The notes under the pieces: model-generated
What the model was told of the DNA's origin: nothing
Databases searched by the model: none
Seen by the model: the letters and a program-made list of their open reading frames with translations, nothing else
Virus record (IMG/VR): IMGVR_UViG_3300042566_001512
Coordinates: 144,808-208,807 of that record
Strand: one strand, 5' to 3'
Origin: a virus
DNA: 64,000 bases
Part shown: piece after piece, positions 2,841 through 48,358 of the stretch
How the letters are laid out: every line of letters begins with the position of its first letter
Position numbering within the stretch: the first letter of the stretch is position 1
Translations under genes and position numbers: made by a program

Positions 2841-5800
2841 TGAAAACGGTAACGATCACTGGAGTAAATACATTTAAAGAAATATCGGACACTAATTGGA
2901 ATTCCGATACTCTGACTATTGTTTTTCCAAACGCGACAACAAATATTGAGAAATGGACAGTGTATGGATCGGCGGCATATCCTGTTACTTTGTCTAGAAC
3001 GGGTTCGTCGGGCTCTTTTACCCTGAACTACACGGGGACGAGCAACATATCTTCCGATTATATTAACGTATCTAACGGCGCTGGACTTCCTTCCAACACG
3101 TGGTATCTTGGGCCAAACAGTGTTAACGGCGTAAATACCTCTGGATTTATTTTTACGTATGGTGCAGTAAGGTATTGGGTGGGCGGCACCGGTACGTGGG
3201 ATCATCAAAGCGCAACAAATTGGGCATACCAAAGTGGCGGTTTCGCCGGGGCGCCGGCTCCCACTAATCTAGATGACGTGTATTTCGATAATAATAGCAG
3301 CAGCGGAGCTTTTACAGTAACCCTCGACAGCGGTTTTGTTGGAACAGGAAGCATAAGCGGAACCACACTGACTATTACCGCCGTTACTAAGGGAACCTTG
3401 GCTGTAGGAAAAAACATCTATTATAATTTATCTAATGTTTTTGCCCCTGATGCGGACTTATCTAACATAACTATACAAAGTATACTAACCGGAACCGGGG
3501 GGGTTGGTACGTACAGAATAAGCACTAGCTTTTCCAACGTGACAAGTAGAGCGATATATTCCGATATACCAAGATGTCGAGATCGCGCGTCGCCCACTAC
3601 AAATAGTTTAAGTTTTGTTGGATCCTCTCCAATAATAATATCCGGAAGCATAGAGGATTCTTTTTCTGTAAATAGCGCTGGCTATTCGTCCGTAATCATT
3701 TTAAACTCCGGATATAATTGCCGACTGGGCGCAGCGGCTTCATTAGCACGATATTTTCTAACCGGTTCTAATAATAGAACTCTGATAAGTTCATTAAGCG
3801 CCTCGATGGTGTTCGTATACTCTGGCGGATTTAATACAAGCAATTTAAGCGTCACACTAAGTAATTTTTTATCGGCTGGTGGATCCTTAACTAGAAACAT
3901 AGATCTTACATATTCTGAAATATTTTTAAGAGACGTATATAACTATCTTAACATAGTGAGCTCGGCAAACTTAACATTTAGTTCTATAAATTCAACAATA
4001 TATCTTAACTTCTACTCCGGACACGAAACGGCAGGATTTTTAACTAACAACCTGCAATACGGAAATATTATTTTTCGACCGGCACCGGCTGGAAGCTCGT
4101 ATGCAATTGTATATTTTACTGGAAATCTATATTGCAGAAACCTAAACATTGAGTCCATTCAGGGTTCTACTAATGCACAAGTAAACGTATGTTTCAACAG
4201 CGGCGCTTCTTCCTCTTTGCCTGTTTACGTAAACGTTTCAGAGAAGTTTACACTTCGTGGGTCCTCCGCTCTGGCCAGAAAGACGTTAGTGGGGTCGTGT
4301 GGCGAACTCAGCGCAAGCTTTAATAAGCCATCAAAGATATACATTACAGCAAGCCAATACGACATAGATTTCGTAGATTTTAGAGACGCAGAATTCACAA
4401 ACACAGTAATATCTGGACAAAGCATTGGAAATCTTGGCAATAACGCCGGCATTCAATTTACGCCACCCAAGACCGTTTATTGGAAAAACACCTCTACTTC
4501 TTACGCCGTTTGGAAGAGTGCATCTTACGCGTTAACCGAAGACGGCGTGGGTTCTTTTGATAACTATCCATTGGCACAAGACACTGTAATTTTTACAGAT
4601 GCAGGAATAGGGGCAAGTGCGTCCATTGGGTTTTTAAATCCATATGACGGACTTGCCGGCAACATCGACATGTCCAGATTAACAAAACCCCTGACCTTTA
4701 ACTGGACGGCATTTACTGGCGGTGGGGGATATAAGGGCATATACGGCGACTTTATTTTATCTAACAGCGTAACAATCAATAGCAACACTCCAATCGCCTT
4801 CTATAATAGAAAAAATTCTATTATAGATACCAAAGGAAAGATCGCTAATGGATATTTCTTTAACAGCGAGAATTGCACCTTAACCATTCAAAGCCCATTA
4901 GTTACATCAGGAGCAGTGACTTTGGTTCGTGGTAATTTATCAATGCTTGCTGATATTACATGTGACACCTTCTCTAGTTCGGCGGTGTTCTTGAGAAGTG
5001 TTGATTTTGGTAGCAACTTTATTAATGTTACAGGATTTAACAAAGATGTAGTTTCAAGTACGTCATCTGGCACCGGCTGGTCTTGTAGTGGAACAAAGAT
5101 GTTTGTCCTACAGGGATCCCCCACTAGCGGAATAAGAAACGTTGGTGGAATAGCATCATCAAATGCCACACAGGATCAAGTGTATTCTTTCAAAGTAGCA
5201 GGTGGTTCTGATACTGTTAGAACGATTAATTTAAGTAGATTTAATAGTATCATTTTTGAAGACGAATTTACAGGATCTAATGGTATTCTGTGGAATTATA
5301 TTTTTGGAGACTTAAGGTTTTCTGGTAACATGACTATAACTCCAACTCCAAGTGGAAGTGCGCATGATCTCTATTTTGTTGGATCAAAACAACAAAACTT
5401 AACAACTAACGGCGTTAATGTACCGAGGACATGTATTATTGCAAAAGACACGGGATCTAACGTTGTTCTTCAAGATGACGTTAATTTTATTCAGCATCTT
5501 AACAATAGCCAAAAGGTTCAGCTGCAATCTGGAACCTTAAATTTAAATGGCCGTAAGCTGACTACGGTTTCGTTCTCTTCAGAAACGTCAAGTCTGAAAA
5601 GCGTTAATTTTGCAAACGGTTCTTTGGTTGTGTCCGGGTCCTCTTTTTCTAATACTTCCACGGCCTTAACTATAACGGGCCCAGGAACCATTAGCATGAC
5701 GAGTAACGCGGCTAAAACGTTTGCAGGTGGAGGGTATCAGAGCTACCCTACGCTTAATCAGGGGGGAGCAGGGACTCTTACAATAACCGGAGCCAACGGG

Positions 5801-8398: not shown

Positions 8399-10882
8399 AT
8401 GAAATACATTTACATTGAATTAAATAATTTCAAGAGAATGCCGCTGACTATAGGTGAACATTTCTCAATGGTTATAACGAATCCTATACAGATAATTCTA
8501 GGTACAAACGGTAGCGGAAAATCCAGGCTCATAAATGAACTCACGCCTTTCCCCCCAAATTCAAACGACTATTCTAAAAACGGCAGCAAGATAATAAAGA
8601 TTGAGCATAAAAATAAAATATATACATTAAAGACCGTTTTTAGTCCAAGCACAAAACATTCTTTTCATATAGACGATCAGGAAAACCTAAACGACGGAGG
8701 CACTCTCGGTGTTCAGGTCAGGTTAATTAAGGAGCATTTCGATTTCACACAAGAAACAAACGCCCTACTTCACGATCAAGAGTTATTCACTAACATGTCT
8801 CCTTCCCGAAAGAAGGAATGGTTTATAGAGATATGCGAGACGGATTACAACTACGCCATTGCGCAATATAACAAATTAAAAGAGAAATATAGAGATTGCT
8901 TAGGCGCACTAAAAATAACTAAAAAACGTCTAGCGGCCGAAACTGAAAAAACTCTAAAAAACCAAGAGCAAGAAAAAATACATGAAGAAGTAAGTCAACT
9001 GCATTCTCTATTGAGTCATCTTCTAGAATACAGGAGACCTGTAGAGAACAGCACCCAGGATATAGAGACCGAAATAAATAGACTAGAGTCACAGGTGCAG
9101 AGGTCGGCAACGCAGCTAATGTCTGTTTTGTCAAAAGACACGGCATACAGCGGGTACACTCTAGAGCATTTAACTGTTTTATCAAATAGATTAAATCAAT
9201 CCATCAATACCCTAAATGCTTTTCTAGACGAGTACACAAAACAATACGGCAAAAATTTAGAAAAGATAAAAATATTACAGCAAGCAGAACAAAGCACAAT
9301 TTCTACATTAGAACAAGAGATAGTCGAGTTAACTAATCAAAACTCTCACGTTCTAAAAAAGATAGGTGTTTTTTGCATTGGCAGTGCATCGTCGGCTTAC
9401 GAAAGTTTCCAAAATATAAAACAAATGCTTACGGAAATATGCACAAGCATACCGTCTAATAAAGATAAAAAATTCAATAATGATTCACTGAGGCGCTCCA
9501 GGGATGAGCTCGGCGCATTAAACATAAAAAAGCAAGCTGCACTAGAAAACATCTCTAGTAAACAAGCTCAGCTAAGGCATCTTTTGCTACACAAGGAAAC
9601 CCAACTGGTAAGTTGCACAAAATGCAATCACAAATTTTCTCTTGTGTATAACGAGAATACGCGAATGGAACTAGAGTCATCAATACAGCTAGCCCAGGAC
9701 AAATTAGATTTAATAAATGACAGTATAAAAACAACCCAAGCCTACGTCGATGAATGCCTTGAGTATTCTAGTCTCTATAGACAGTACAACCAAATGACTA
9801 CGGGTAACCCCGCACTACAGCCTTACTGGGATGACCTGAGAGAAAAGAACATAATTACAGACGATCCCAAGTCCGCTGTCCATCAACTAAACCAGTATGA
9901 GCAATTCTTAAAACTTCAAATAGAAGCTCAAAATACATCAGATAAGATAGAGAAAAAACAAAACCTTCTTAACTCCCTTAGAAACGTTGGCACTGAGAGC
10001 CTTCAAACCCTTCTAGATGCAAATAATTATCTTTATTCTAGGGTAGATAGAACTACTGAAAAAATAAGCTGTAAGAGCCGTAAATTAGAATTGATTAATT
10101 CTCTTATACAAAGAAAAAAGACAGTCGAAGCTATTAGTGAAAAAATAAAAACATTGTTAAATGAACATTCAGAGTGCACCGCACAATACATTGAGACCAT
10201 TAGAAGAGAAATGTTAAATGCACTTATTAAGCAGCTACAATCTGAACTAGGGGCTAAGGAGCATATTTTACATCTAGCATCTAATCAAAAAAGCGTAATT
10301 GCAAACATAGAAGAACAGATCGCAGATTTAGAAGTGGATAGACAAGCCCTTAGTTTATTGATAGACCAGTTATCGCCAAATGACGGCTTAATAGCCCAGG
10401 GATTGCTGGGGTTTATAAAATCGTTTATTGGCCAGATGAATACATTAATTGATAAAGTATGGTCATATCCAATGACAATAGGGACTTGCGACGTAAAAGA
10501 TGACGAATCTCTTGATTTGGACTATAGATTTCCAGTAAACCAAGGAGATGACCAAGACGGCGCACCAGACGTATCTCTTTGCTCTAAAGGAATGAAAGAA
10601 ATAATTAATCTGTCTTTTAAGATCACGGCAATGAAGTATCTAAATTTACTTGATACTCCTTTATACCTAGATGAGTTTGGTTCGGCCATGGACGGCGGTC
10701 ACCGTTCAGAGGTAATCTCTCTTATTAAGACTTTTAACGAACAAAAGACATTTAGTCAGACGTTTATAGTTAGTCACGACGTTACTCAGTATAATTCATT
10801 ACCAAATTCTGAAGTTTGCGTTATTTGCGACATCGGCGTAGTGGTCCCTAGTAAATATAACGAACACGTTACTTTTAAGTAA
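8399..10882 (+). CDS. SbcC/Rad50/gp46-like recombination ATPase
   Basis: This 827-aa protein has the head-coiled coil-hook-coiled coil-head plan of SMC-like nuclease ATPases. The Walker A motif GTNGSGKS lies at about residues 35-42. Long charged heptad sequences follow, with a zinc-hook CTKC near residues 405-408. After a second coiled coil come a signature-like region (VSLCSKGMKEIINLSFK) and Walker B TPLYLDEFGSAMD near 752-764, then VSHD. T4 gp46/SbcC partners with an Mre11-like nuclease (gp47/SbcD) in end processing and recombination-dependent replication. No partner nuclease is visible in this window. Confidence 0.9.
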   Translation: MKYIYIELNNFKRMPLTIGEHFSMVITNPIQIILGTNGSGKSRLINELTPFPPNSNDYSKNGSKIIKIEHKNKIYTLKTVFSPSTKHSFHIDDQENLNDGGTLGVQVRLIKEHFDFTQETNALLHDQELFTNMSPSRKKEWFIEICETDYNYAIAQYNKLKEKYRDCLGALKITKKRLAAETEKTLKNQEQEKIHEEVSQLHSLLSHLLEYRRPVENSTQDIETEINRLESQVQRSATQLMSVLSKDTAYSGYTLEHLTVLSNRLNQSINTLNAFLDEYTKQYGKNLEKIKILQQAEQSTISTLEQEIVELTNQNSHVLKKIGVFCIGSASSAYESFQNIKQMLTEICTSIPSNKDKKFNNDSLRRSRDELGALNIKKQAALENISSKQAQLRHLLLHKETQLVSCTKCNHKFSLVYNENTRMELESSIQLAQDKLDLINDSIKTTQAYVDECLEYSSLYRQYNQMTTGNPALQPYWDDLREKNIITDDPKSAVHQLNQYEQFLKLQIEAQNTSDKIEKKQNLLNSLRNVGTESLQTLLDANNYLYSRVDRTTEKISCKSRKLELINSLIQRKKTVEAISEKIKTLLNEHSECTAQYIETIRREMLNALIKQLQSELGAKEHILHLASNQKSVIANIEEQIADLEVDRQALSLLIDQLSPNDGLIAQGLLGFIKSFIGQMNTLIDKVWSYPMTIGTCDVKDDESLDLDYRFPVNQGDDQDGAPDVSLCSKGMKEIINLSFKITAMKYLNLLDTPLYLDEFGSAMDGGHRSEVISLIKTFNEQKTFSQTFIVSHDVTQYNSLPNSEVCVICDIGVVVPSKYNEHVTFK

Positions 10883-14969: not shown

Positions 14970-16448
14970 ATGGCCAGTAAAGCAAAAGCTTCAAATACAA
15001 AACAACCCGCCATTGTAGAATCTCCAGTGGGCGCAGTGGTCTACACTGATGGAGGCTGCCGGCCGTCAAAGGGATTTGGCGGTTGGGGTATGCACGGATA
15101 CGTATACAGCGATCAGTCACCTAAAAAGGGTTCTGGTAACGCAAGGCAATATCTGACAGATTTGGGTTATTTACCTAAATCGGAAAACGAAAAACCAACA
15201 GAGATCAAGCCAATTAGCTACATTGAGGGATACGGTTCTTTCTCTCATGAGGTTACTAACAATATCGCTGAAATAACGGCGGCAGCTAAAGCCGCGGAAT
15301 ATCTGTGTAAATACGATCTAAAAAAGGTAAACATTCTAACAGACAGTGAACAGGTTATCAAGGCCTCCACCAGTTGGATAGACGTGTGGAAGAGCAACAA
15401 CTGGATTAAGTCCGACGGAATGCCCGTAGCTAACCGGGACCATTGGGAGTTTTTGGATAAAAATATCCAAGCCCTTAAAGATAAAGGGACCGAAGTGTGC
15501 TTTAAATGGGTAAGAGGGCACAACGGTAACGACGGAAACGAAAGAGCTGATCAGTTGGCCACCATGGGAGTAATAAACTCCATAGAGGGCTCGCATCGTA
15601 ACGAAATAGACCAGCAGCCGGCCGACGGGTACTGGTCACAATCTCACGATAGAAATAGGTTCATAACCCACCGATCCCTATATTTTATCTCTAGAAGAGA
15701 AACCGTCGTACCTGGCGAGTACTATATGGGCAATCACGGGAAAAACGACGAGCTGCTGGCCAAGAGAGCCGCCGATGGCTGCTACGCCTACGTTAAGGTA
15801 AAAACTCCGGACCCGGTAATAGAGATGGCACGTGAGCGCCAAATAAAAGCATGTGAAGGAAATGAGCACATTTTTATTTTAAAGCTTTCTAAACTTTTTT
15901 CACAGGAAGTTTATAACGACATGATGAAGTGGGGTGAGGCGTGTTTGTATAAAAAGAACACAAACCCCAAGCAGCGCGGGTATTTGAATCTTTACTACCT
16001 AGACAAAGAAGTAGTTACGGAACAACTGAGTCCGCCGTTGATAGCTATACGGGCCATTGAATCGGTGAACGTGCTAAAGGGTCTTCTTTTGGCATGGGAG
16101 TCAAAAGATCCAAACATTAACTGCACTGACGTTACTGATTATTTCTATGAAACTGACGATAAGAAGAACAATAAACTAAAGGAGATGTTTATTTCCGGTT
16201 TTATTGGTCTGAGAGTTAAAGTGGACAATTTTACAGGTCAAAAGGACGAAGTCGAACTCACGCTGGGTATCGATATACCGGAGCGAAATACTCTAAAGCG
16301 CCTGGAGAAAGACAAGCCAAAAATGACCGTTATTACTTGGAAAGAATCGGCCGAAATGTACAGATACGCAACTATAATTCAATGCAAAGAAGACATTGGC
16401 ATCTGGGCCGGCATGTATTCTAATTTCAAGATAGTGACTGTGAAATAA
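14970..16448 (+). CDS. Ribonuclease HI domain protein with C-terminal extension
   Basis: In this 492-aa protein the N-terminal ~200 residues are an RNase HI domain. The catalytic acids are visible: VVYTDGG (Asp ~26), NNIAEI (Glu ~100), LTDSEQVI (Asp ~124), and WVRGHNGNDGNERADQLA (final His/Asp ~185-195). It would degrade RNA in RNA-DNA hybrids, for example replication primers. The remaining ~290 residues have no motif I recognise; typical RNase HI proteins are ~150 aa. An insert between the first Asp and Glu (residues ~48-85) also lengthens the domain. Confidence 0.9.
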   Translation: MASKAKASNTKQPAIVESPVGAVVYTDGGCRPSKGFGGWGMHGYVYSDQSPKKGSGNARQYLTDLGYLPKSENEKPTEIKPISYIEGYGSFSHEVTNNIAEITAAAKAAEYLCKYDLKKVNILTDSEQVIKASTSWIDVWKSNNWIKSDGMPVANRDHWEFLDKNIQALKDKGTEVCFKWVRGHNGNDGNERADQLATMGVINSIEGSHRNEIDQQPADGYWSQSHDRNRFITHRSLYFISRRETVVPGEYYMGNHGKNDELLAKRAADGCYAYVKVKTPDPVIEMARERQIKACEGNEHIFILKLSKLFSQEVYNDMMKWGEACLYKKNTNPKQRGYLNLYYLDKEVVTEQLSPPLIAIRAIESVNVLKGLLLAWESKDPNINCTDVTDYFYETDDKKNNKLKEMFISGFIGLRVKVDNFTGQKDEVELTLGIDIPERNTLKRLEKDKPKMTVITWKESAEMYRYATIIQCKEDIGIWAGMYSNFKIVTVK

Positions 16449-16522
16449 TAATGTAGTCTAGTATATTAGACTGACAAAAAACAAGACGACTTTTATCGTA
16501 ATCTAGTTAACAGGAATACAAA

Positions 16523-16951
16523 GTGAATCGCACAAATGCCACCACAGACAACCGAGCAATACAATACATAGTTAATAGACTACCGTCTCACCTAAAGCGC
16601 ATCATTTTCCTAGCCAGTATCACTGCCGTAGCAAAGAACTTAAAAGAACCCGACGACGAGTTCATAGGTAAGCTTAATGATTTAATGCAATTATCGAACA
16701 CCGGAAACAACGCACTTAAATTACCAATTTACATTAACAAACTAATCTGGAGTCACAGGGAGTGCATTCAAGAAGAGCTAAACGTGCTCACTAGTTCCAC
16801 CTGCGACCCGCAATCCCGTCAACATTGCGTAGACAGAATAAACAGCTTCACCCCTTCCTGGCTTAAATACGCCGACCAAGACACAATCATCGGAGACCTC
16901 AATAGATTGTTTCAAAAGGAAAACAGTCTATTTACTCACACTACAGTATAA
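16523..16951 (+). CDS. Hypothetical protein (142 aa)
   Basis: This frame starts at GTG after ACAGGAATACAAA and encodes a mainly helical soluble protein with scattered Cys. It follows the RNase H gene on the same strand and ends at a strong convergent terminator. No motif recognised. Confidence 0.55.
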   Translation: MNRTNATTDNRAIQYIVNRLPSHLKRIIFLASITAVAKNLKEPDDEFIGKLNDLMQLSNTGNNALKLPIYINKLIWSHRECIQEELNVLTSSTCDPQSRQHCVDRINSFTPSWLKYADQDTIIGDLNRLFQKENSLFTHTTV

Positions 16952-16961
16952 AAACACTCAG

Positions 16962-16994
16962 CATATAGCCCCGGATTTTTTCCGGGGCTATATG
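16962..16994. terminator. Bidirectional terminator between convergent genes
   Basis: A perfect 14-bp stem CATATAGCCCCGGA with a T5 loop, exactly between the stops of the 142-aa plus-strand gene and the 282-aa minus-strand gene. Confidence 0.85.
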
Positions 16995-16997
16995 GCA

Positions 16998-17846
16998 TCA
17001 ACCGAATATTTCAGTAATTTTATTTACCGTATTATCAATTGCTGAGCTTAGTCCCAGCGCGCGATAGTAGGTATTGCTAAAGTATTCCATTTCCTTTGCC
17101 ACCTGATAAGCGCCTAAGGACAGCCTTTCTGCGGCTTCCGGTCTGGTCTTGGCTCCGTTTCTTTTTATGTTGTCTGCTATTAAAGCTAGATAATTAACGC
17201 AATGATCTATCTCTTTCTTAAGGGCGTTTCTGTCCACAGATTGAAAGTTATCTATCACTGCTTTTTGCTTCAGTATCACATCCGACCAGTCCGAATTACG
17301 TTGTACTACCTCACCAACCGCGGTTTCGGTTTTGTATGAATCGGCTTTATATAGCGAAGTAAATTTTTCTATTCTTTTGTCTCGTGCTTCTTCGAGTTTT
17401 GAATATTCGAATCTTTTTGATTCTGCTGATAGTGCGGTGTCAGCGTTCGAAAGAAAGCTAGCCAGATATAGGGAGTAAGGAGAAACAACATGTGCATATA
17501 AACCTTTGGCGTATTCGCTGGACTCCAATAGAGCATCTAGCATTGTTAAATATGTGCAATTCATGCCCTCAGGCTTGTAAGCACGCAACTGACGAACCTC
17601 TGTAAAGGGTATATTGTTTACTAAATCCAGAAATTTCTTGTTTTCTTTGGTAAAAGGCGTTGCCTGTGCGCTGGTATGAAAACCTCGCAATTGTAAATAA
17701 TCGCCAGTGTTTCTAAACGCGTTAAAAATATTATTAACAAACAAACCGAAATCACCAACAAAGCCCTCTTGGGCTATTGACTCGATGCTCAGTTGTCTGC
17801 TTAGTATACTCAGGGTAGAGATATCTACTTCTCTGCTTTTTGTCAT
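16998..17846 (-). CDS. Probable internal head/virion protein
   Basis: A 282-aa, almost entirely helical protein without catalytic motifs. Near the N-terminus it has LSIESIAQEGFVGDFG. This resembles the hydrophobic, Glu-containing delivery segments of T4/phiKZ inner head proteins, which the prohead protease cuts after S/A-x-E. A prohead protease is encoded at 50.7 kb. The start follows GAAAGGAAAAC. A role as an internal virion protein is inferred. Confidence 0.5.
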   Translation of the reverse strand: MTKSREVDISTLSILSRQLSIESIAQEGFVGDFGLFVNNIFNAFRNTGDYLQLRGFHTSAQATPFTKENKKFLDLVNNIPFTEVRQLRAYKPEGMNCTYLTMLDALLESSEYAKGLYAHVVSPYSLYLASFLSNADTALSAESKRFEYSKLEEARDKRIEKFTSLYKADSYKTETAVGEVVQRNSDWSDVILKQKAVIDNFQSVDRNALKKEIDHCVNYLALIADNIKRNGAKTRPEAAERLSLGAYQVAKEMEYFSNTYYRALGLSSAIDNTVNKITEIFG

Positions 17847-18010
17847 ATATGTTTTCCTTTCACAGAACGCTTGATTTTTAATTGAGTTTTTAAACCGCTA
17901 GCACAGACACACCATTTATGAAAGAAGCCCTTTATTGCTCTGTAAAAATATAGTTACGTGTGATAGTTTGTAAGAGAATCCCATTTAACTAAAAGAAAGT
18001 CAACCCTATC

Positions 18011-19459
18011 ATGCAAGATTTTAATTTTGACATATCTTCTGCATTTGAAGAAGCTCCCGCAATTAAACCATACATCAACATCGGCTCTTTGCTAGATATC
18101 CCTACTGGTGTATTCATAAAAGGAAAATATGGGGAACACATTCTAAATGGGGGCTTGGGTTTTATAACTGGAGTAGTTGGTATTGGTAACAATTTCAAAT
18201 CCACAGTTATGCATTACATGATGCTTTCGGCCATGGATCGCTTCCCCAAGTCAAAAGCTAACACTTATGACACCGAGATTAACATTCAACAAGCTCGCCT
18301 ACAGGCTCTCTCTTATAGCTTTGAGACGTTCAAGGCCCGTAGAATCATCGATGAGGGTATTTGGACGGTAACTGATAAAACCGTCTACTACGCTAACGAG
18401 TGGTACGAGCAGTGGAAGAAGTTCATGAATAGCAAGATCAGTAACGCTTCTAAGTTTACTGTGGAGCTACCTTTCCTAGACACAAAGAAGAGCGACGGAA
18501 CTTGTCTGAAGTTTGTATACCCTACATTTTCTCAGGTCGATAGCTTCTCTGAGTTTGAGACAGAGGACGTGGCCAATATTCAGAACAACAACGAACTGGG
18601 CGATTCGGGCGGTAACACCATCCACATGCGTCAAGGTCTCTCCAAGGTGCGGTTCCTATCCGATATCCCTAAGCTGATCGCTAAGGGATTTAACCCTATG
18701 ATGATGACTGCTCACATCGGTAAAGACATTCCAATGGATCCTCGTGCCGCACCGGTCAAGAAGCTCCAGTTCCTAAAGAATGGAGATAAGATCAAGGGCG
18801 TGACTGATAAGTTCATGTTCTTGACTTCTGCTTGCTGGCAGTGCTCTTCTGCTGTACCGTTTACTAACGATACGACTAAAGCACCTGAATATCCACGTAG
18901 TCCTGAGGACGATATGAAAGGCGATACGGATCTGAATATCGTAACGCTTACCTTGCTACGCAATAAGAACGGTGTTACGGGTTTGAATATCCAACTACTA
19001 GTTTCTCAACGTGAAGGGGTGTTGGCTCCATTGAGTGAATTCCATTACATCAAAACGAATGGGCGGTATGGCATTGATGGCACGCTGCAGCATTTCTATC
19101 TGGATTTATTGCCAGATGTAAAGATCTCTCGCACTACAGTGCGATCTAAGATCAATGAAGTACCGGCACTACGTCGCGCTCTTAATATCACGGCAGAGAT
19201 GTGTCAAATGAGCTTGATACATGATTACGAAAAAGGATTCATTTGCACGCCTAAAGAGCTATACAACGATTTGATCGCCAAGGGATATGATTGGGACGTC
19301 TTGCTCAATACTCGTGGATGGTATACTGCCGAGAATGATAAGCACAAGATCCCTTTTCTGTCCACGTATGACCTGTGTTCCATCCGAGCGGGTACGTACC
19401 ATCCCTATTGGCTAGAAGATGACAAGAAGACTATCAAGAAGAAATTCATTGTATCCTAA
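18011..19459 (+). CDS. RecA/UvsX-like recombinase or related ATPase
   Basis: A 482-aa protein with a RecA-fold core. A degenerate Walker A GIGNNFKST lies at about residues 57-65 (Phe where Gly is usual before Lys). YDTEINIQQARL matches the strand-2 'DTE' of RecA/UvsX proteins, followed by FNPMMMTAHIGKDIPMD. The C-terminal ~150 residues look like a separate helical domain. UvsX-type proteins drive strand exchange in recombination-dependent replication and would work with the SbcC-like protein. Arginine is mostly CGT/CGC here, unlike the AGA-rich neighbours. Assignment as a strand-exchange protein rather than a DnaB/RadA-like ATPase is tentative. Confidence 0.65.
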   Translation: MQDFNFDISSAFEEAPAIKPYINIGSLLDIPTGVFIKGKYGEHILNGGLGFITGVVGIGNNFKSTVMHYMMLSAMDRFPKSKANTYDTEINIQQARLQALSYSFETFKARRIIDEGIWTVTDKTVYYANEWYEQWKKFMNSKISNASKFTVELPFLDTKKSDGTCLKFVYPTFSQVDSFSEFETEDVANIQNNNELGDSGGNTIHMRQGLSKVRFLSDIPKLIAKGFNPMMMTAHIGKDIPMDPRAAPVKKLQFLKNGDKIKGVTDKFMFLTSACWQCSSAVPFTNDTTKAPEYPRSPEDDMKGDTDLNIVTLTLLRNKNGVTGLNIQLLVSQREGVLAPLSEFHYIKTNGRYGIDGTLQHFYLDLLPDVKISRTTVRSKINEVPALRRALNITAEMCQMSLIHDYEKGFICTPKELYNDLIAKGYDWDVLLNTRGWYTAENDKHKIPFLSTYDLCSIRAGTYHPYWLEDDKKTIKKKFIVS

Positions 19460-39906: not shown

Positions 39907-42334
39907 ATGGATAAACTGGACGTGCCTTTTAACATATTTTTTCTTAGACTAGACGAGCTTACCGTTAAGTACCTCAAGCCCGTGACTTCCCTTGACGTCT
40001 TTGATGGCCTTACTAAAAACCTCCATCCGGATGGATTATATTCGCCATCCATATTCGGCGTGGTTGGAAGTAATAATAGATACACAAAATTCTCCTATAT
40101 AGACATAAAGGTAAAAATAATGCACCCGGTGTATTATAAAGCAATTACCTCTATGAAATCATTATACGAATCCATAATGACCTCAAAAGAGTTTGCGGTC
40201 TGGGACCAGGAAAAAAAGGACTTTGTAAAGTCAAACGCGTTGGCAGGGCAAACCGGTTACGACTTCTTTATACAGCACTGTGATAGCATAGTGCACGAAG
40301 AAAGACCGTCTACCGATAGACAGGAAAACATATCACTTATAAATAAATATAAACAAAATTATTTATACGATAAAATCATCGTACTTCCGGCGGCATATAG
40401 GGACATTGAAATAGATGACAATGGAAGAGAATCCTCAGATGAGATAAATTCGCTTTATTACAAAATCATAGCGATATCAAACACAATAAACATTAACACC
40501 GTAAGAATCTCACCTGAAGCTTACAACACCCAGAGAATGTCCCTGCAAAGAGCATTCAACGACACATACGAGTATCTCTCTAACCTAATTAGAGGAAAGA
40601 GTAATCTCTTTATGGGCAAGTGGGCGTCTCGAAAAATATTTAACGGGACTAGAAACGTAATTACCTCAATGAACGTTACTCAAACTGAGCTAGGAGCACC
40701 CAATTCAATAAACTACAACGACACGCTTGTTGGGCTGTACCAAACTTTAAAAGGCATTTTGCCAGTAACGTTATACAGATTAAAAACTGGGTTTTTATCT
40801 GGAGTATTTCCATCAATAAGCTCACCTGCTCTATTGACTAATAAGACAACGTTAAAATCAGAAAAAGTTGTTTTAAAGACTGCCATATATGACAAGTGGA
40901 TGACCAATGAAGGATTGGAGTCACTTATTAGCTCTTATAAAGAACCATCAATCAGACACGACTATGTCACAGTGGACAACTATTATCTAGGTTTAATTTA
41001 TAGGGGGCCGGATAATACTTTTAAATTGATACACGGAATAGACGAACTTCCTGAGGACAGAGATCCAAAAGACTGCAGGCCTATCAGCTTGACGGAGTTA
41101 TTTTATTGTTCAATCTACGAAATTACGGACAATTACCCAGCACTAGTAACGCGGTATCCAGTAACCGGAGTCGGTAGCATATACCCGTCTATGGCTAAAT
41201 TAAAATCAACGATAGAAGTGGAAAAGAGATATAAGCTAGGGGTAGACTGGACTGTAGATCCACAATCTAAAGTGGCCTACGAATTCCCAACTCAAACTGA
41301 TTTATTCAGTGCTCTGTCTCCCCATCCTTTTAAACTAGGTAGACTTTCAGCTGATGGTTTTAAATGTAAGACTATATAAAACGGTTTTACATTTTAATCA
41401 CGTCCTGTTTTGCAGAAATGCGAAATAAGATTCTTCCTTAATTGCTGGGACATCTTGACACGTTAAAAGCTACAACGTAATGCGAAAGCATAGGCGCGAA
41501 TGCTTGAAAATTTTAACGTAAGACAATCAGCAGCGAAGCTCCTGCTCCCCGCCTAAACGGGAAAGGAGAACGTTCAACGGCCAGCCCTTAAGCAAGGGGT
41601 AGGAGCAAGTGCTCCGAAATGGGAAGCGCCTTACCAGCAATTGCTAGGAAGGTGAAGATATGGTCTTACCTGCATGGAGACATGCAGCGGCTTCTAATGG
41701 AAAGCCGGTAAGCGAGGTAACGTGCGCTTATTGAAAACACGTGTTCGACGGCGATTAAAAGTTATATTAACCCTCAATACCCTCGGGTTAAAACGAGTTA
41801 ATTTATAACACAAAAAGGTTGCCTATTCGCAGTAATGTGAATATAAAAAAATCTCTCTAATTGCTGGGACTCCTCGTTAAACCACTAAGACTACAACGCA
41901 GCGCGAAAGCGCAGACGTGAGAGTTTGAAAACATTAGTGGGTAGAGACAATCAGCAGCTAAGACCCTTACTGCATATAAATTGCAAATGGGTAAAGTTCA
42001 ACGACTAGATCGAAAGATCGTACCGTGTCAAGTGACGCGGGAAACGGGAGACTCCGGTTTTTACCGGATGAAGATATAGTCTTGTCTATGCGGAGACGCG
42101 TAGCTGTGGGATAGCATTTACTTCCCTTTAAAACGAAACAGGTTAACGCCCCTGTTTGAAAACCTAACGACAAGTAGTTGTAACTTCCTCTACTCCGAAG
42201 ATTCTATTAAAGAAATTTATGATTTTTTTAATAACACTCGGTGCTACGTAGGAACTGATGGAAAATTTATTAATAGTTTAGAAATAGATACGGTTAAATA
42301 CGTTTTACATAACCTCACAGGAGAACCACAATAA
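39907..42334 (+). CDS. RNA polymerase beta'-type subunit, spliced from three exons
   Basis: The proposed mRNA joins 39907-41355, 41744-41755 and 42170-42334, giving 541 aa. Exon 1 contains NYPALVTRYPVTGVGSIYPS and ends HPFKLGRLSAD. The 12-nt second exon encodes FDGD, and exon 3 begins TSSCNFLYSEDSIKE. Joined, they read LSADFDGDTSS, the universal ADFDGD magnesium-binding motif (Asp 483, 485, 487) of beta'. Without splicing, the frame ends 8 codons past the motif start and no catalytic loop exists. The protein ends ~55 residues after the motif, so the rest of beta' must be encoded elsewhere, as in phiKZ-like phages with split RNAPs. AGGAG precedes the ATG. The stop overlaps the beta start (TAATG). 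Confidence 0.88.
41356..41743 (+). ncRNA. Group I intron 1 (beta' gene)
   Basis: This 388-nt element has core sequences in order: P AATTGCTGGGA (41440), Q AATCAGCAGC (41525), R GTTCAACGG (41572), S AAGATATGGTC (41655). A CTGCATGGAGACATGCAG hairpin follows S, as in T4 td-type introns. P and Q can form P4 (TGCTG/CAGCA). Boundaries are set by restoring ADFDGD: exon ends GCTGAT, intron ends in G before TTCGAC. No endonuclease ORF. Confidence 0.88.
41756..42169 (+). ncRNA. Group I intron 2 (beta' gene)
   Basis: This 414-nt element has P AATTGCTGGGA (41859), Q AATCAGCAGC (41949), R GTTCAACGACTA (41996) and S AAGATATAGTC (42071). The 5' exon end GGCGAT can pair with the internal sequence GTTGCC at 41818-41823, with a U-G pair at the splice site. 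It ends CCTAACG before ACAAGT. No ORF. Confidence 0.9.
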
Positions 42335-45300
42335 TGAATAATCAACAAGTTTTTTATAAAACATACGGAGTTAGAAACGTAAATGAACTCGCTTCTCCTA
42401 GACTTTTTGATCTAGTAGAATTTGTGTTTCCTTTTAACAGCATAATGCACTATGCGACTTATGACTCCATTGAGAACGGCCCGCCTGGTGACTATCCGCT
42501 GTTTAACCAAATAAAGAAACCGATATACTTTAAGACAATAAACGAAATATCTGCTTTTAATGGCAGCCCAAGGCTGCAGGCCATAAACACGCAGGAACTA
42601 GTTAGGGATTACAGAAATAACAATAGGCGAATGAAGTTACTGCAGGGAGAGGTTCAAAACGTATCGGACCCTACTGTATTAACCGTATTTAATTACTGCA
42701 TATTAAATAAACAATACAAATATGCCCGCAACTTATTTACGGACTATCATCGCTGGAAGAATATATTTACAACAGTTATAGACACTTTAGTAAATAGACT
42801 TTCTAGCCCACAAATAAACCACTATATACCGCTGACTATACCGGATATAATACCTAGCATGATTCAGTTAGATTTGGCCTCCAAAGGGCTTAATCAGTCG
42901 AACCTAAAAGTATTCAAAGACAATAATAGTTTTATGCTTTTAGAGTTATGGAAGTGGCTCAATCCTGCGACTAGTTCTGATAGTCTTTTTAGCAAAATAC
43001 CTATTAACAGAATTCATCTAGTTAATCTGGTTTATATTAAAAGAAACAAGTGGTGCGTTTTAAATTTAGGCGTAATAAATAGCTTTAAGGAAGTCAGTGG
43101 GGACGCCCTTAAACCAGAAAACACACCAATTGTGCTATCTAGGGTGAAGCTCAAATACGTTCAGATACAAAAACGTATACTGAACATGATGATGACCATA
43201 GAGGCCGGATCAGTTGTGGCCGTGGATATTCCCGAGGACATTAAACTGGACGTTCCCGATCAAACGGTAGAAGAACCCGATATCTATTCAGATTACCAAG
43301 AACAAGAGGTAACCACAGAGGCCCCTGTTAAACAAAAGCCTCCTCTTACTGATAAAGAATTACTGGTTCTTCAAGAAAAAGCTAATCAGTTATTATCCGT
43401 AGAAGATGATGACGATCAAGAAATAATAGATCAAAAGATCAAGTTACAAGATCTAGAACTAGACCAAAGACTAGATCAACTTAATGAAATTAACCAAAGA
43501 AAAGAAAATGAATTACAGACAATAGAAAACTCTACTATTTACGACGTTCTTAATGAACAAGAGCCGTCCCTTTATAAATTAGTAGAAAACATGTGCGACA
43601 GGTTAGCAGATAACAACATGCTAACTGCAGCGGAATATAAAAGACTAATTAGGTTGGCCGGTTCCTATAAGACGATAACTTCAAAGGACGGTAAAAGTAC
43701 TCTAGAAGAATACGTCAAAATACCACCAGAAGATCTGGTGGTGCAGGACGTAGTTAACATACCGGATTCTCCGGCAATTGTTGATAAAACGATGCTAAAA
43801 TCTTCTTTGCAGTCATTTACTTCCGACTATGTAAAAAAGGACATAATCGGAAAAGACACTGCATCGATGGTGATCGCGATTCAAAAATCTGGAATGATAG
43901 TCACAGATTACAAGGTGGAAAAATACGAAAGTATTTTAGGTGCGGAAGAAGAGCATACGTTGAGGATTGTACCTGTAGAAGGAATCCCATCGACCATCAG
44001 ATTTAAAGTTCCAGTAGTAAACGAAGACGGTACCTTTGTGGCGTCCGGCGTCAAATATAGACTAAGAAACCAAATAGGGGATTAAGATTTATAAAATATC
44101 GCAGAACATACTTTTGCGATAGTGACAAACAATGTGTTGTCTAAAAGGTCCCCGTGCTGCAGAAACGCCGCACAAGTAAACCTACCTAATTGCGGGAAAA
44201 CGCCATATCTAAATAGCTACCACTTATACCCAGAAACGGAGTATAAATACCTGCGGGGTAATGTTCCAGACAGGCAAGGTAAAAACGCTATTAAGAGGCA
44301 TAACCGACGCAGCAAAGCCCCTAAATGCCAAAAGCGGCACATTGGGGTGGGCTCAGAGGCCATCGAAAGCTATTGCGCCAGCGCATAATAACATTCGTGT
44401 AAAGTCGAATGGTCACTATTAGCATTAGTGATTAAAGCAAGTAGAGTAGGGGCGTTTATTCGCTCCGAAACGGTAGGCACCTAACGGCACTAAACGGCTC
44501 AAGGTGAAGATATGGTCCACATGGATGAGTGCTACCCATCCGCAAAATTGATTACAATAGAGTAAGCCTAACAAGCTACTATGGAAAAACTTTTATAAAC
44601 AGATCTCGAAAGCGAGCAAACGATTACGGCACCTGGATTCAAAACGCGGTGATGGCCAAAGCGCTTAATAAGGAAGACAAAGACATTACCGATTTGTTCA
44701 CGGCAAACGTATTCGATAACACGTTAAAAGCACCAAGAGCTTACACTGGTTTATCCATGTATTTTAAATCTTTTAAGGTAAAAGATTACGTACTGATGCT
44801 AGATCACAAGGTCATAAAGAGCACAGTAAACGATAAAATACTAAAGAAGTACGAAACCGACTCAAGTGTGGTGTGCGGTTATAAAAACTCTGATTTGTTA
44901 GTAATGGATAAAAACAACGCCATTTACAAAATCAAAGATGATCAATTGGAGTTCATATCCAGCATAGAGGATTTCCTTAACATAGACAGCAGCGCTGCTC
45001 CAGTGGAGTATGCCGAAGTAGTCATAGGCGCTAAAGATATACCCGTTGGCGTCGTTCTCAGCTATTACATAGGTTTTACAAAGCTACTTAAGCTTCTTAA
45101 TTTAAACCCAGTCAGAGTAGAGGCTGGAAAACGAGTGAATCTACAACCCAATGAGTTTTCTTTGGTGTTTAGTGACGAGACTCTCGTATTCTCCAGAGAC
45201 GATAGATTATCCTCTTTAATAGTGGGTGGATTCTTGGAGTATCACAAATCCATTAGAGCGTTCAACGTCCACAGCTTTGATAAAAAGGGCGTGTACGTTA

Positions 45301-48034
45301 ATTTGCTGGAGTCTAATAAACTAGGAACCAGATATATACGTGAGATGGATCTAATGCAGCAAATGTTCATAGATCCAATAACTAAAGAGATATTAAAAGA
45401 CATGAAGGAACCAACAACGTTCAACGGTCTTTTAGTTAGAGCATGCGAGCTATTGATGGATGATAAACACCCTCAAGAGTTAGATACGAAGTACATGCGA
45501 ATAAAGGGATACGAAAGAATACCTGGGGCCGTTTATAGGCAACTAGTTGCAGCTATACGCCAGCACAATGCGCAGTTAGGCAAGGCATCCAAGCAAATGA
45601 CACTCGATCCTTACGCAATATGGCGCTACATTACAGAGGATCCGACTAAGGTTCAGATAAGTGAGATTAATCCTATTCAGGCACTTAAAGAAACCGAAGC
45701 CGTAACTTTTTCAGGAACGGGCGGCCGTAGTAGCCGAAGCATGGTAAAAAGCACAAGAGCTTACCACAAAAACTCTATGGGCACTATTAGCGAGTCCACC
45801 GTTGACTCCTCTGATGTAGGTATAAATATCTACACTAGCGCCAATCCGCAATTTAATTCTTTGCGAGGAATATCCAGAGAATTTGATTTTGAGAAACAAG
45901 GTGCCACTAGCTTGCTATCCACCTCCGCAATGCTGGCACCGGCATCCGACAAAGATGATTAATAGTTTATTACAAAAATAAACTAATGGTCCGACAGATC
46001 AGCGATGATCAGTTTGTAATCTCCTTAATTGCTGGGACTCCCTTATAGCCGTTTTACTACAATGATCACGAAAGTGAGTCATGACAGTTAGAAAACAAAA
46101 CGGATTGGGTAATCAGCAGCGAAGCCTCTTTAAAATGAGGAACGTTCAACGACTAAGATCTTATCAATCTGTACCTGCAAAGTGTGGGGAAACGGGAGAC
46201 TGCTCCATCAGGAGCAGAAGATATAGTCTCTTCTGCATTGAGAGATGCAGCTGCGCAAACGCGCGAGTTAGATTAACGAACTAACTGAAGGTAAAGCCAA
46301 AACGAGTAAACTTAAAATGCTCCCTTTGAGAGTAATCTCAATTGAAAAACTTCTCTAATTGACAAGAAGTCCCTTATAGACAATTGACTACAGCGTGACC
46401 GGAAACGGTGAGCGTGAGAGTTTAGGACGATTGTATTGGGTAACTTGCAGCGAAGCTCCTATAAAAACGGAGAACGTTCATCGACTAGACCGTAAGGTCG
46501 TACACTCAAGTGAGTGGAAACGGGAAGCTCCTTTAGAAAAACTAAAGGATGGTGACATAGTCAGTTCTGTAGTGAAAGTTACAGCGGGTCATGTTTGGCC
46601 GGCATCGACGAAAAACTAGTCGATGTGAACATAAAGAAATTTTGTAGCCATACAACAAGGTCACTCCATAGCTTGCGACGGGTACCATCAGCCAACGGTG
46701 AGAACCGGCTACGATCAAGTGGTGGCTCATCGCTCCCATGATCTATTCGCAATAACCGCCACAAAACCAGGAACGGTATTGTCCATCAACAAAAAGGGCA
46801 TAGTGGTAGAATATGCAGATAAAACAAAACAAGGATACGAGCTAGGAAGGCGATTTGGTAATGCGGCAGGTTTGGTAATACCGCACGAAATAGTAACCGA
46901 TCTTAAAGCAGGTCAAGAGTTTGAAATCGGTGAGGCCATTTGCTATAACTCCGGGTTCTTTGAGCCGGATTTCTTTGATCCTAAGAGAATAGTTTTAAAG
47001 AATTCATTCAACGTAAGAACGGTTCTTTGGGAATCGCTGCAGACCTTAGAAGACGCTTCTTCTATTACAGAAAAGACTGCTAATAAACTAGTCACCTCTG
47101 TGACTAAAGTAAAGAACGTTTTGGTTTCGTTCGATCAGACTGTCAGTAATTTAGTAAAGATAGGAGAGAAGGTGGACTACGACACCGTCCTTTGTTATAT
47201 TCAGGACAGTATTACTGCTGGAAATAAACTTTTCACAGACGAAACCATAGACACATTAAAAATGCTAGGTGCCCAATCCCCCAGGGCGCACGTGCAAGGC
47301 GTTGTAGAGGCCATTGAGGTTTACTATCACGGAGAGAAAGAGGACATGTCCGAGTCTCTGCTGGAGCTATGCAACGAAAGCGATAAACGTCTGAAATATG
47401 TGGCAAATAGTCAAGGCAAAAAATTCATGTCGGGAAGCGTGGACTCCGGCTTCCGGATTGAAGCCAATCCTCTTGCTCTAGACTGCGTCGCTATAAGAAT
47501 CTACATTACTACGAAAGCACCCGCTGGAATTGGCGATTAGTTTTTAGTCCTGCTACGATGAAAATCGTAAACAGTTTTCTCCTTAATTGCTGGAAACTCT
47601 TTTATAAAAAAAGACAATCAGCAGCGAAGCCTCATTCCCAAAAAAATGAGGAACGTTCAACGACTATCCCGTAGCTGGGAGTAGGGTCATGTGGCCCCAA
47701 ACAGGAGATATCTTCGGGTCTTAACTGGCCAAAGATAAAGATATAGTCTAGTCTATGCGGTGACGCGTAGCTGCGAAATATAAAAAGTCGCAGGATTGGG
47801 TCTAACGAACCCAATCTAATAAAAACGAAAGGCGTGTTTGCTAACCAGATGAAGACAGTTTTTAGTGAAACTATAAAGCAGAGTTACAAAACTGAAGACG
47901 GAAAAGAAATAGACGCGGTTTTTGGTGCAAAGAGTATCGACGACCGTATCGTTAACTCCGCAGTTATAATTGGCACGGCCAATGCCACTCTTGACATTAT
48001 TACTGATAAAGCAGTAGAGATGTATTTTTCTTAA
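42334..48034 (+). CDS. RNA polymerase beta-type subunit, spliced from five exons
   Basis: Proposed exons: 42334-44082, 44532-45959, 46297-46318, 46645-47537 and 47828-48034, giving 1,432 aa. Joints read QIGD|LPIRKIDYNRVSLTSYYG, ASDKDD|PKRVNLK|LAIQQGHS and PAGIGD|KGVFANQMKTVF. They match bacterial beta DDANRALMGSNMQRQAV without gaps, and GDKMAGRHGNKGV with both catalytic lysines (Lys 1365 and 1373). Exon 2 carries INPIQALKETEAVTFSGTGG, equivalent to the fork/rifampicin-region segment. The protein ends just after the region equivalent to beta NIGQILETHLG and lacks the last ~100 residues of the family; see 21269-21931. AGGAG lies 12 nt before the ATG. An acidic ~100-residue insertion (residues ~310-400) is unusual. 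Confidence 0.88.
44083..44531 (+). ncRNA. Group I intron 3 (beta gene), divergent
   Basis: This 449-nt element is the most diverged of the six. P AATTGCGGGA (44188) and S AAGATATGGTC (44507) are clear; Q is probably near 44302 and R is not obvious. The exon end GGGGAT pairs with GTCCCC at 44148-44153 over six positions, with U-G at the splice site. Splicing joins QIGD to LPIRK. A 88-codon open frame inside is Cys/Arg-rich and not endonuclease-like. Confidence 0.82.
45960..46296 (+). ncRNA. Group I intron 4 (beta gene)
   Basis: This 337-nt element has P AATTGCTGGGA (46027), Q AATCAGCAGC (46111), R GTTCAACGACTA (46144) and S AAGATATAGTC (46218), followed by CTGCATTGAGAGATGCAG. Exon end GATGAT and 3' exon CCAAAACGA restore DDPKR. 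The 5' site could shift by one base. Confidence 0.88.
46319..46644 (+). ncRNA. Group I intron 5 (beta gene)
   Basis: This 326-nt element has P AATTGACAAGA (46357), Q AACTTGCAGC (46442), R GTTCATCGACTA (46476) and S GTGACATAGTC (46552). Boundaries are the only pair found that keep frame and give a gap-free match to the beta DDxxR motif (K|L|A junction, codon split 1+2). No internal guide pairing was found, so the 5' site is the least certain of the six. Confidence 0.78.
47538..47827 (+). ncRNA. Group I intron 6 (beta gene)
   Basis: This 290-nt element has P AATTGCTGGA (47585), Q AATCAGCAGC (47616), R GTTCAACGACTA (47655) and S AAGATATAGTC (47738), followed by CTATGCGGTGACGCGTAG. It is the shortest of the six. 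Splicing joins GGCGAT to AAAGGCGTG, giving GD|K directly before the catalytic lysine codon. Confidence 0.88.
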
Positions 48035-48060
48035 ATCTCGTCATTTACTGCGAGTAAGAT

Positions 48061-48115
48061 GGCGCGTGTTCGTTAATCCCTATGAGGATTAGAAAAAGAG
48101 CACGCGCCCTTTTTA
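48061..48115 (+). terminator. Terminator after RNAP genes
   Basis: An outer stem GGCGCGTG/CACGCGCC encloses an inner TAATCC/GGATTA hairpin, followed by CTTTTTAC. It ends the RNAP transcript. Confidence 0.75.
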
Positions 48116-48160
48116 CTAAGTTTTCCATTCATGATTTATTAAAAGGACAAGGTAACAAAA

Positions 48161-48358
48161 ATGAAACCAGAATCAGAACGCACCCTAGTAACTGTGGCAA
48201 ATGCCATTTGCCTGGTCACAGAGGTTATCAAAGAAGTAGCTGGCGTGGACGTGGCAGATCGCTTATCTGGAGCACCGGTGAGCGATGAAACGTACGCCAC
48301 TTTAGTGGCCAGCGAAATAAACAAAAACATTGTAGCCGCTAAACTACCTGGAGCATAA
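48161..48358 (+). CDS. Small hypothetical protein (65 aa)
   Basis: A clear ribosome binding site (AAAAGGACAAGG) precedes the ATG. A helical, acidic protein (TLVTVANAICLVTEVIKEVA). It is the first gene after the RNAP terminator and lies 5 nt before the next gene, so it leads a small operon with two larger virion-like genes. No family recognised. Confidence 0.6.
   Translation: MKPESERTLVTVANAICLVTEVIKEVAGVDVADRLSGAPVSDETYATLVASEINKNIVAAKLPGA

Follow-up and report, generated by a model that had tools for sequence, protein, structure and literature searches.

The locus at positions 39907–48034 of the window (the whole 64,000-nt stretch of viral DNA that was analyzed, corresponding to 144808–208807 of a 208,807-bp virus record) raises the question of how an RNA polymerase (RNAP) can be made from coding sequence that is repeatedly broken. 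The sequence is distributed over long open frames at 39907–41379, 42334–44085, 44529–45962, and 46698–47540, and its last, short piece stops at 48034. A preliminary description, made without database searches, proposed that these frames collapse into two RNAP genes once six group I introns are removed, with every joint restoring the reading frame and a conserved RNAP motif. Comparison with intact homologues, profile searches, and a covariance search for the introns upheld this proposal in all three respects, as set out below.

By sequence family and gene order, the two adjacent interrupted genes are those for the β′-N and β subunits of a virion RNAP (vRNAP) of the phiKZ gp180/gp178 type. Removal of the six introns (I1–I6) gives joined products of 541 aa (β′-N) and 1,431 aa (β), and all six joints align without gaps to the intact genes of the Burkholderia phages FLC9 and FLC6 and the Pseudomonas phage SL2, restoring LSAD/FDGD/TSS, QIGD/LPIRK, DKDD/PKRV/NF, and GIGD/KGV (slashes mark the joints). 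Junction peptides of the predicted spliced products include LSADFDGDTSSC, ASDKDDPKRV, and AGIGDKGVF. The QIGD/LPIRK joint, initially placed in the N-terminal part of β, is located at residue 583 of the 1,431-residue protein. Exon 1 of β′-N matches PHROG 2986 (E = 3.5e-171) and the exons of β tile PHROG 3148 without overlap (4–574, 575–1050, and 1055–1354), the four-residue hole in the tiling being the PKRV microexon; a Pfam search of the vRNAP exons gave no match. The order of genes, in which a large gene of the tail/lysozyme type, encoded on the other strand, is followed by β′-N, β, and structural genes, is the same in SL2, FLC6, FLC9, and PhiPA3, and in the PhiPA3 annotation the counterparts of both genes are phiKZ gp180 and gp178, the virion polymerase. 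Divergence between β exon 2 and a related locus (L021) is 0.33/0.20/0.60 by codon position, and the excess at the third position indicates that this exon, the one tested, is under protein constraint. A second, intact RNAP gene set, which would have spoken for a degenerate locus here, was sought, and no second copy of vRNAP β was found in the 208.8-kb record, a metagenomic contig. The β′-N stop codon overlaps the β start codon (TAATG, 42332–42336), which suggests translational coupling of the two genes after splicing. Elsewhere in the record, a homologue of ChmA adjoins the β′ gene of the non-virion RNAP (nvRNAP), with 25% identity to PhiPA3 gp053 over 36–584 of 602 (E = 1.3e-26), and its presence marks the phage, by homology, as a nucleus-forming jumbo phage (chimallivirus).

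All exons and introns lie on the plus strand. Exon 1 of β′-N (39907–41355, 483 codons) ends with LSAD and is followed by I1 (41356–41743, 388 nt, site AD/FDGD), a 12-nt microexon encoding FDGD of the catalytic loop (41744–41755, TTCGACGGCGAT), I2 (41756–42169, 414 nt, site FDGD/T), and exon 3 (42170–42334, 54 codons and the stop). Exon 1 of β (42334–44082) ends with RNQIGD and is separated by I3 (44083–44531, 449 nt, site QIGD/LPIRK) from exon 2 (44532–45959, 476 codons, ending with DKDD). I4 (45960–46296, 337 nt, site DD/PKRV) and the phase-2 intron I5 (46308–46636, 329 nt, site PKRV/NF) enclose an 11-nt microexon for PKRV (46297–46307, CCAAAACGAGT), after which exon 4 (46637–47537, ending with AGIGD), I6 (47538–47827, 290 nt, site GIGD/K), and exon 5 (47828–48034), running from KGVFANQMK to the stop codon, complete the gene.

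In a search of the 64-kb window with the Rfam model for group I introns (Intron_gpI, RF00028), five full-length hits exceeded the gathering score (77.5–101.7 bits, E = 6e-18 to 3e-25), at 41383–41687 (I1, 83.6 bits), 41790–42103 (I2, 88.8 bits), 45959–46250 (I4, 86.7 bits), 46298–46584 (I5, 77.5 bits), and 47528–47770 (I6, 101.7 bits). The sixth match, I3 (44094–44529, 47.2 bits, E = 9e-10), is just below the cut-off of 50 and belongs to a strongly supported clade of I3-site introns with some members that exceed that cut-off. In addition to a P3–P8 core (just sub-threshold in I3), the introns have the expected U and G ends, restore a gene upon removal, and are absent from alleles found elsewhere. 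I1, I2, I4, I5, and I6 are without an ORF, and an 88-codon frame inside I3 was rejected as a gene, having no Pfam or PHROG match. None of I1–I6 was found to contain an endonuclease ORF with a family match in Pfam or PHROG, and they consequently lack the encoded endonuclease that defines a mobile (homing) intron.

The exact joints were set by three joint constraints, namely flanking homology, reading frame, and the rule that U precedes a group I intron and G ends it; U ends every 5′ exon and G ends every intron (6/6). Gap-free scoring of P1 was not discriminating for I1, I4, I5, and I6 and was replaced by local folding, which predicted the U·G splice-site pair in I2–I6 with p = 0.81–0.97 (0.95 for I2 and 0.88 for I6). 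The P1 of I3 is GGGGAU/GUCCCC (p = 0.97) and that of I2 is GGCGAU/GUUGCC, entirely within the 12-nt microexon, whereas the P1 of I1 was ambiguous, with U-1 favoring a nearby A (p = 0.55). An in-frame stop codon is found at the start of I2, I3, I4, and I6.

The microexons, which the preliminary description had missed together with the site-by-site relationship to homing introns, are not peculiar to the window. The catalytic loop is doubly interrupted in relatives as well, where the second sites differ, and the exon between the two introns measures 9 nt in L022 (TTTGACGGT), 12 nt in L026, and 6 nt (TTCGAT) in L093, L122, and L124, the 9-nt and 6-nt exons having been recognized by reading the sequence. 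Joining restores ADFDGDT in each of these five loci. The catalytic aspartates are thus encoded by an exon of 12 nt in the window and of as little as 6 or 9 nt in relatives, and exons of this size will escape gene callers. Skipping of the 12-nt exon would keep the frame while deleting FDGD, and a dead isoform is predicted as its product; Twort and SIOphi have been seen to skip exons that lie between group I introns (PMC11878797), which makes the isoform without FDGD a testable prediction. The L122 phage (113-kb record, nine RF00028 matches altogether) also has four tandem group I introns in its nvRNAP β′-N gene (L187 3060–4620, G067), where exons of 12 and 9 nt give PNAD/FDG/DQ, the last joints having been read by eye.

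A single-protein scan of IMG/VR for close relatives found nothing, and alignments were needed to find them. To survey site occupancy, the two joined proteins were compared by tblastn with 160 loci from IMG/VR, which clustered at 95% nucleotide identity into 104 lineages. Breaks in the 160 loci are confined to six places, namely the loop, with its two to four exact positions, and residues 583, 1059, 1062–1063, and 1363, the sole additional gap being one of 198 nt in a poorly conserved stretch of L130. Occupied lineages number 16/97 at the loop, 13/104 at residue 583, 25/103 at residues 1059–1063, and 3/100 at residue 1363. When the 94 lineages readable at all four regions are considered, 60 have no region filled, 22 have one, eight have two, four have three, and none has four; the window, unlike any of them, fills all four regions (six exact sites). 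The cultured phages fit this distribution, with PhiPA3 and 201phi2-1 interrupted at 1059, EL in the loop and near 1060, pir03 in the loop and at 583, and LucasX in the loop. Judged from gap sizes in the sampled loci, ORF-less introns make up 8/12, 5/13, 14/25, and 1/3 of the occupants at the four regions, respectively.

Kinship among the introns follows the site of insertion. In a tree of 66 intron cores the site label changes 17 times, compared with 39.4 times in shuffles (0/200 as low). All 13 introns at the I3 site, including that of the window, form one clade (support 100/99), I5 of the window pairs with the intron at the same site in L130 (95/98), I2 groups with L022 (99/83) beside L026, and I4 groups with the I4-site intron of L046 with moderate support (91/72). 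The placement of I1 and I6 lacks resolution, and the bootstrap had not settled. Within a single genome (L066), introns at sites A and I4 (4122–4455 and 8954–9252) are sisters (100/99), making them candidates for transfer between sites inside one genome. Same-site introns of relatives often encode endonucleases, the type of which differs by site: HNH endonucleases are found at the loop, 1059, 1063, and 1363, while the proteins encoded at 583 are of the DUF723/treble-clef type and have a nuclease-like end. The HNH protein carried by L046, the nearest relative of I4, has PhiPA3 gp210 as its closest counterpart among phage records (46% identity), and the break at gp210 maps to residue 1059, the I4 site. 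A search of the record containing the window found no gp210-like, GIY-YIG, or LAGLIDADG gene and only one HNH gene, a weak match in the tRNA region; a free-standing DUF723-type nuclease of 408 aa (L185 1096–2322, about G000:99178–100299 of the record) has relatives among the endonucleases that I3-site introns encode. The earlier statement that none of the six introns carries a homing endonuclease is accurate but does not extend to their same-site relatives or to the record as a whole. Since most of the window introns group with same-site introns elsewhere, homing is the most likely way in which they arrived, and an endonuclease was either lost afterwards or never present. The simplest history that we infer is that conserved active-site codons were entered by homing repeatedly and that the endonucleases were then lost; it agrees with the general rule that the sites of group I introns are conserved ones, at which a loss that is not exact is lethal (PMC2814812).

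Several other explanations of the locus were weighed against this history. It is hardly credible that the RNA is not spliced at all, with the locus decayed or its exons translated as separate subunits; although the RNAP subunits of jumbo phages are naturally split proteins, the catalytic FDGD is encoded solely in the 12-nt exon, which could not be a separate subunit, and the intact frames and ribozyme cores, the codon-position constraint, and the lack of a second copy in the record all speak against decay. Moreover, the 201phi2-1 gp273/274 record describes the same joint, at the I4 site, as a joined CDS with a noted interruption by a mobile element, the single spliced product of which was identified by mass spectrometry. 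Spread of one founder intron to six sites within the genome, by reverse splicing or ectopic endonuclease activity, would account for the similar core of all six and has a possible parallel in the L066 sisters, but it is very improbable given that the tree places the window's I2, I3, I5 and, with weaker support, I4 beside same-site introns of other phages and not beside one another. Improbable to a lesser degree is trans mobilization, in which the ORF-less introns would be moved by free-standing endonucleases that the phage itself encodes; the process is known in phages (PMC3984707), and the 408-aa DUF723-type nuclease is a candidate for it. With a single nuclease of this type and, apart from the weak HNH match, none of the other families sought in the record, such mobilization would cover I3 at most.

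A further question is whether the introns benefit the phage. Each of them would destroy a homing site by occupying it and might be retained for this reason, since the vRNAP genes would then resist endonucleases brought in by co-infecting phages, for example PhiPA3 gp210. This endonuclease nicks the intron-minus phiKZ gp178 at the I4 site and lowers the yield of phiKZ (PMC11620839), and the window fills all four of the regions targeted in relatives, each without a nuclease. However, ORF-less occupants are common at these sites, as neutral decay after homing predicts, and none of the regions is occupied in the majority of fully readable lineages (60/94), so that a benefit of this kind, while deserving consideration, is unlikely. 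Somewhat more doubtful still is a selected defence that blocks all known vRNAP homing sites and is tolerated via a phage nucleus separating transcription and splicing from translation; under such a defence the 6–12-nt catalytic exons would be joined reliably before export of the mRNA from the nucleus.

The reading that we favor, with a probability of roughly 0.9, is that the locus is a vRNAP β′-N and β operon with six site-specific, homing-derived, and now ORF-less group I introns that are most likely self-splicing. Each intron would be removed by two guanosine-initiated transesterifications and the exons, including the 12-nt and 11-nt microexons, would be joined into two uninterrupted frames, with the stop codons that open I2, I3, I4, and I6 expected to halt ribosomes at the 5′ splice site. 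The I2 guide GUUGCC would pair with the second half (six nucleotides) of the 12-nt exon, so that the first half stays available to I1 as its 3′ exon and the two introns could be recognized independently. Every insertion site is a homing site for endonuclease-bearing introns in other chimalliviruses, and the introns of the window would be site-specific lineages that came by homing, either vertically or through co-infection, and are now ORF-less. They would be retained because a deletion that falls within an active-site codon is viable only if it is exact. On this account, precise splicing of all six introns should be a precondition for the polymerase.

The six introns of the preliminary description are not the full complement of the record, which has ten RF00028 matches representing nine introns, two of the matches being halves of one. 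These two (record 17624–17926 and 18030–18330) were considered as tandem nvRNAP introns and rejected in favor of a single 724-nt intron with a loop ORF. It interrupts the catalytic motif (NADFDG/DQM) of the nvRNAP β′-N gene (L010, record 16124–19426, outside the window); its 116-codon loop ORF is of no known family, and splicing would give an intact 489-aa product. A 72-bit group I intron interrupts the DNA polymerase gene (L006, record 45011–48336, minus strand) upstream of a DxxGSYP-like motif, and tRNA-Leu(UAA) (L007 1476–1793, record 85760–88972) has a 231-nt group I intron in its anticodon loop, with an HNH gene just upstream that is apparently inside another tRNA gene.

A spliced RNAP gene with a group I intron is known from the jumbo phage phiKZ (gp71-73), which had been offered as the precedent for this locus; it encodes the non-virion RNAP, however, and differs from the window in both gene and site. 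The closest precedents are instead the vRNAP genes PhiPA3 gp209-211, 201phi2-1 gp273/274, and EL gp184-187. PhiPA3 gp209-211 has a group I intron with the HNH endonuclease gp210 in vRNAP β (Birkholz et al. 2024, PMC11620839), positioned, as I4 is, directly after the conserved Asp-Asp, and I4 of the window groups with introns bearing gp210-like HNH genes of this type. PhiPA3 has this one intron with its endonuclease and no microexon, whereas the window has six introns and no endonuclease. The 201phi2-1 and EL genes are likewise interrupted at the DD site, and EL at the catalytic loop too, but with one and two introns, respectively, and with an HNH gene retained in EL. Several group I introns per gene, with a small exon between two of them, occur in Twort orf142 and the Bastillevirinae (PMC11878797), where there are at most three per gene, in replication or structural genes, compared with six in the RNAP locus of the window. 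Up to 14 introns per genome have been reported in crAss-like Zeta phages (PMC7886860) and 18.5 on average in Jug phages (PMC12363816), both of them intron-rich, like the window phage, and unrelated to it. Outside phages, a single-nucleotide microexon in placozoan mitochondrial cox1 (PMC5436844) is, like those of the window, flanked by two group I introns and completes an essential codon, although the setting is an animal mitochondrion, the introns are of the IB type, and the gene is not for RNAP.

Each ingredient was therefore already known, namely vRNAP introns, multi-intron phage genes, microexons flanked by group I introns, and intron-rich phages, and the view that six introns go far beyond precedent has to be narrowed, as the number is less exceptional beside the Zeta and Jug phages. 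What is new is the six-fold, ORF-less allele with all sites occupied, together with catalytic microexons of 6–12 nt. Six introns in one vRNAP locus, filling all homing regions without a nuclease, were not found in the literature consulted or in the sampled relatives, and that literature contained no report of 6–12-nt catalytic exons in a phage RNAP.

The locus illustrates the extent to which introns can invade an essential viral enzyme, both vRNAP genes being predicted to depend on six splicing events. In crAss-like Zeta phages, RNAP genes are broken inside DxDxD; the breaks were left unexplained, with appeal to expression mechanisms of an unknown kind (PMC7886860). Tandem introns with microexons are a possible explanation for them. 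More generally, the vRNAP offers a system in which the homing sites are defined, both occupied and empty alleles occur naturally, and an attacker, gp210, has been characterized by experiment, so that whether ORF-less introns are remnants or have a protective role is directly testable.
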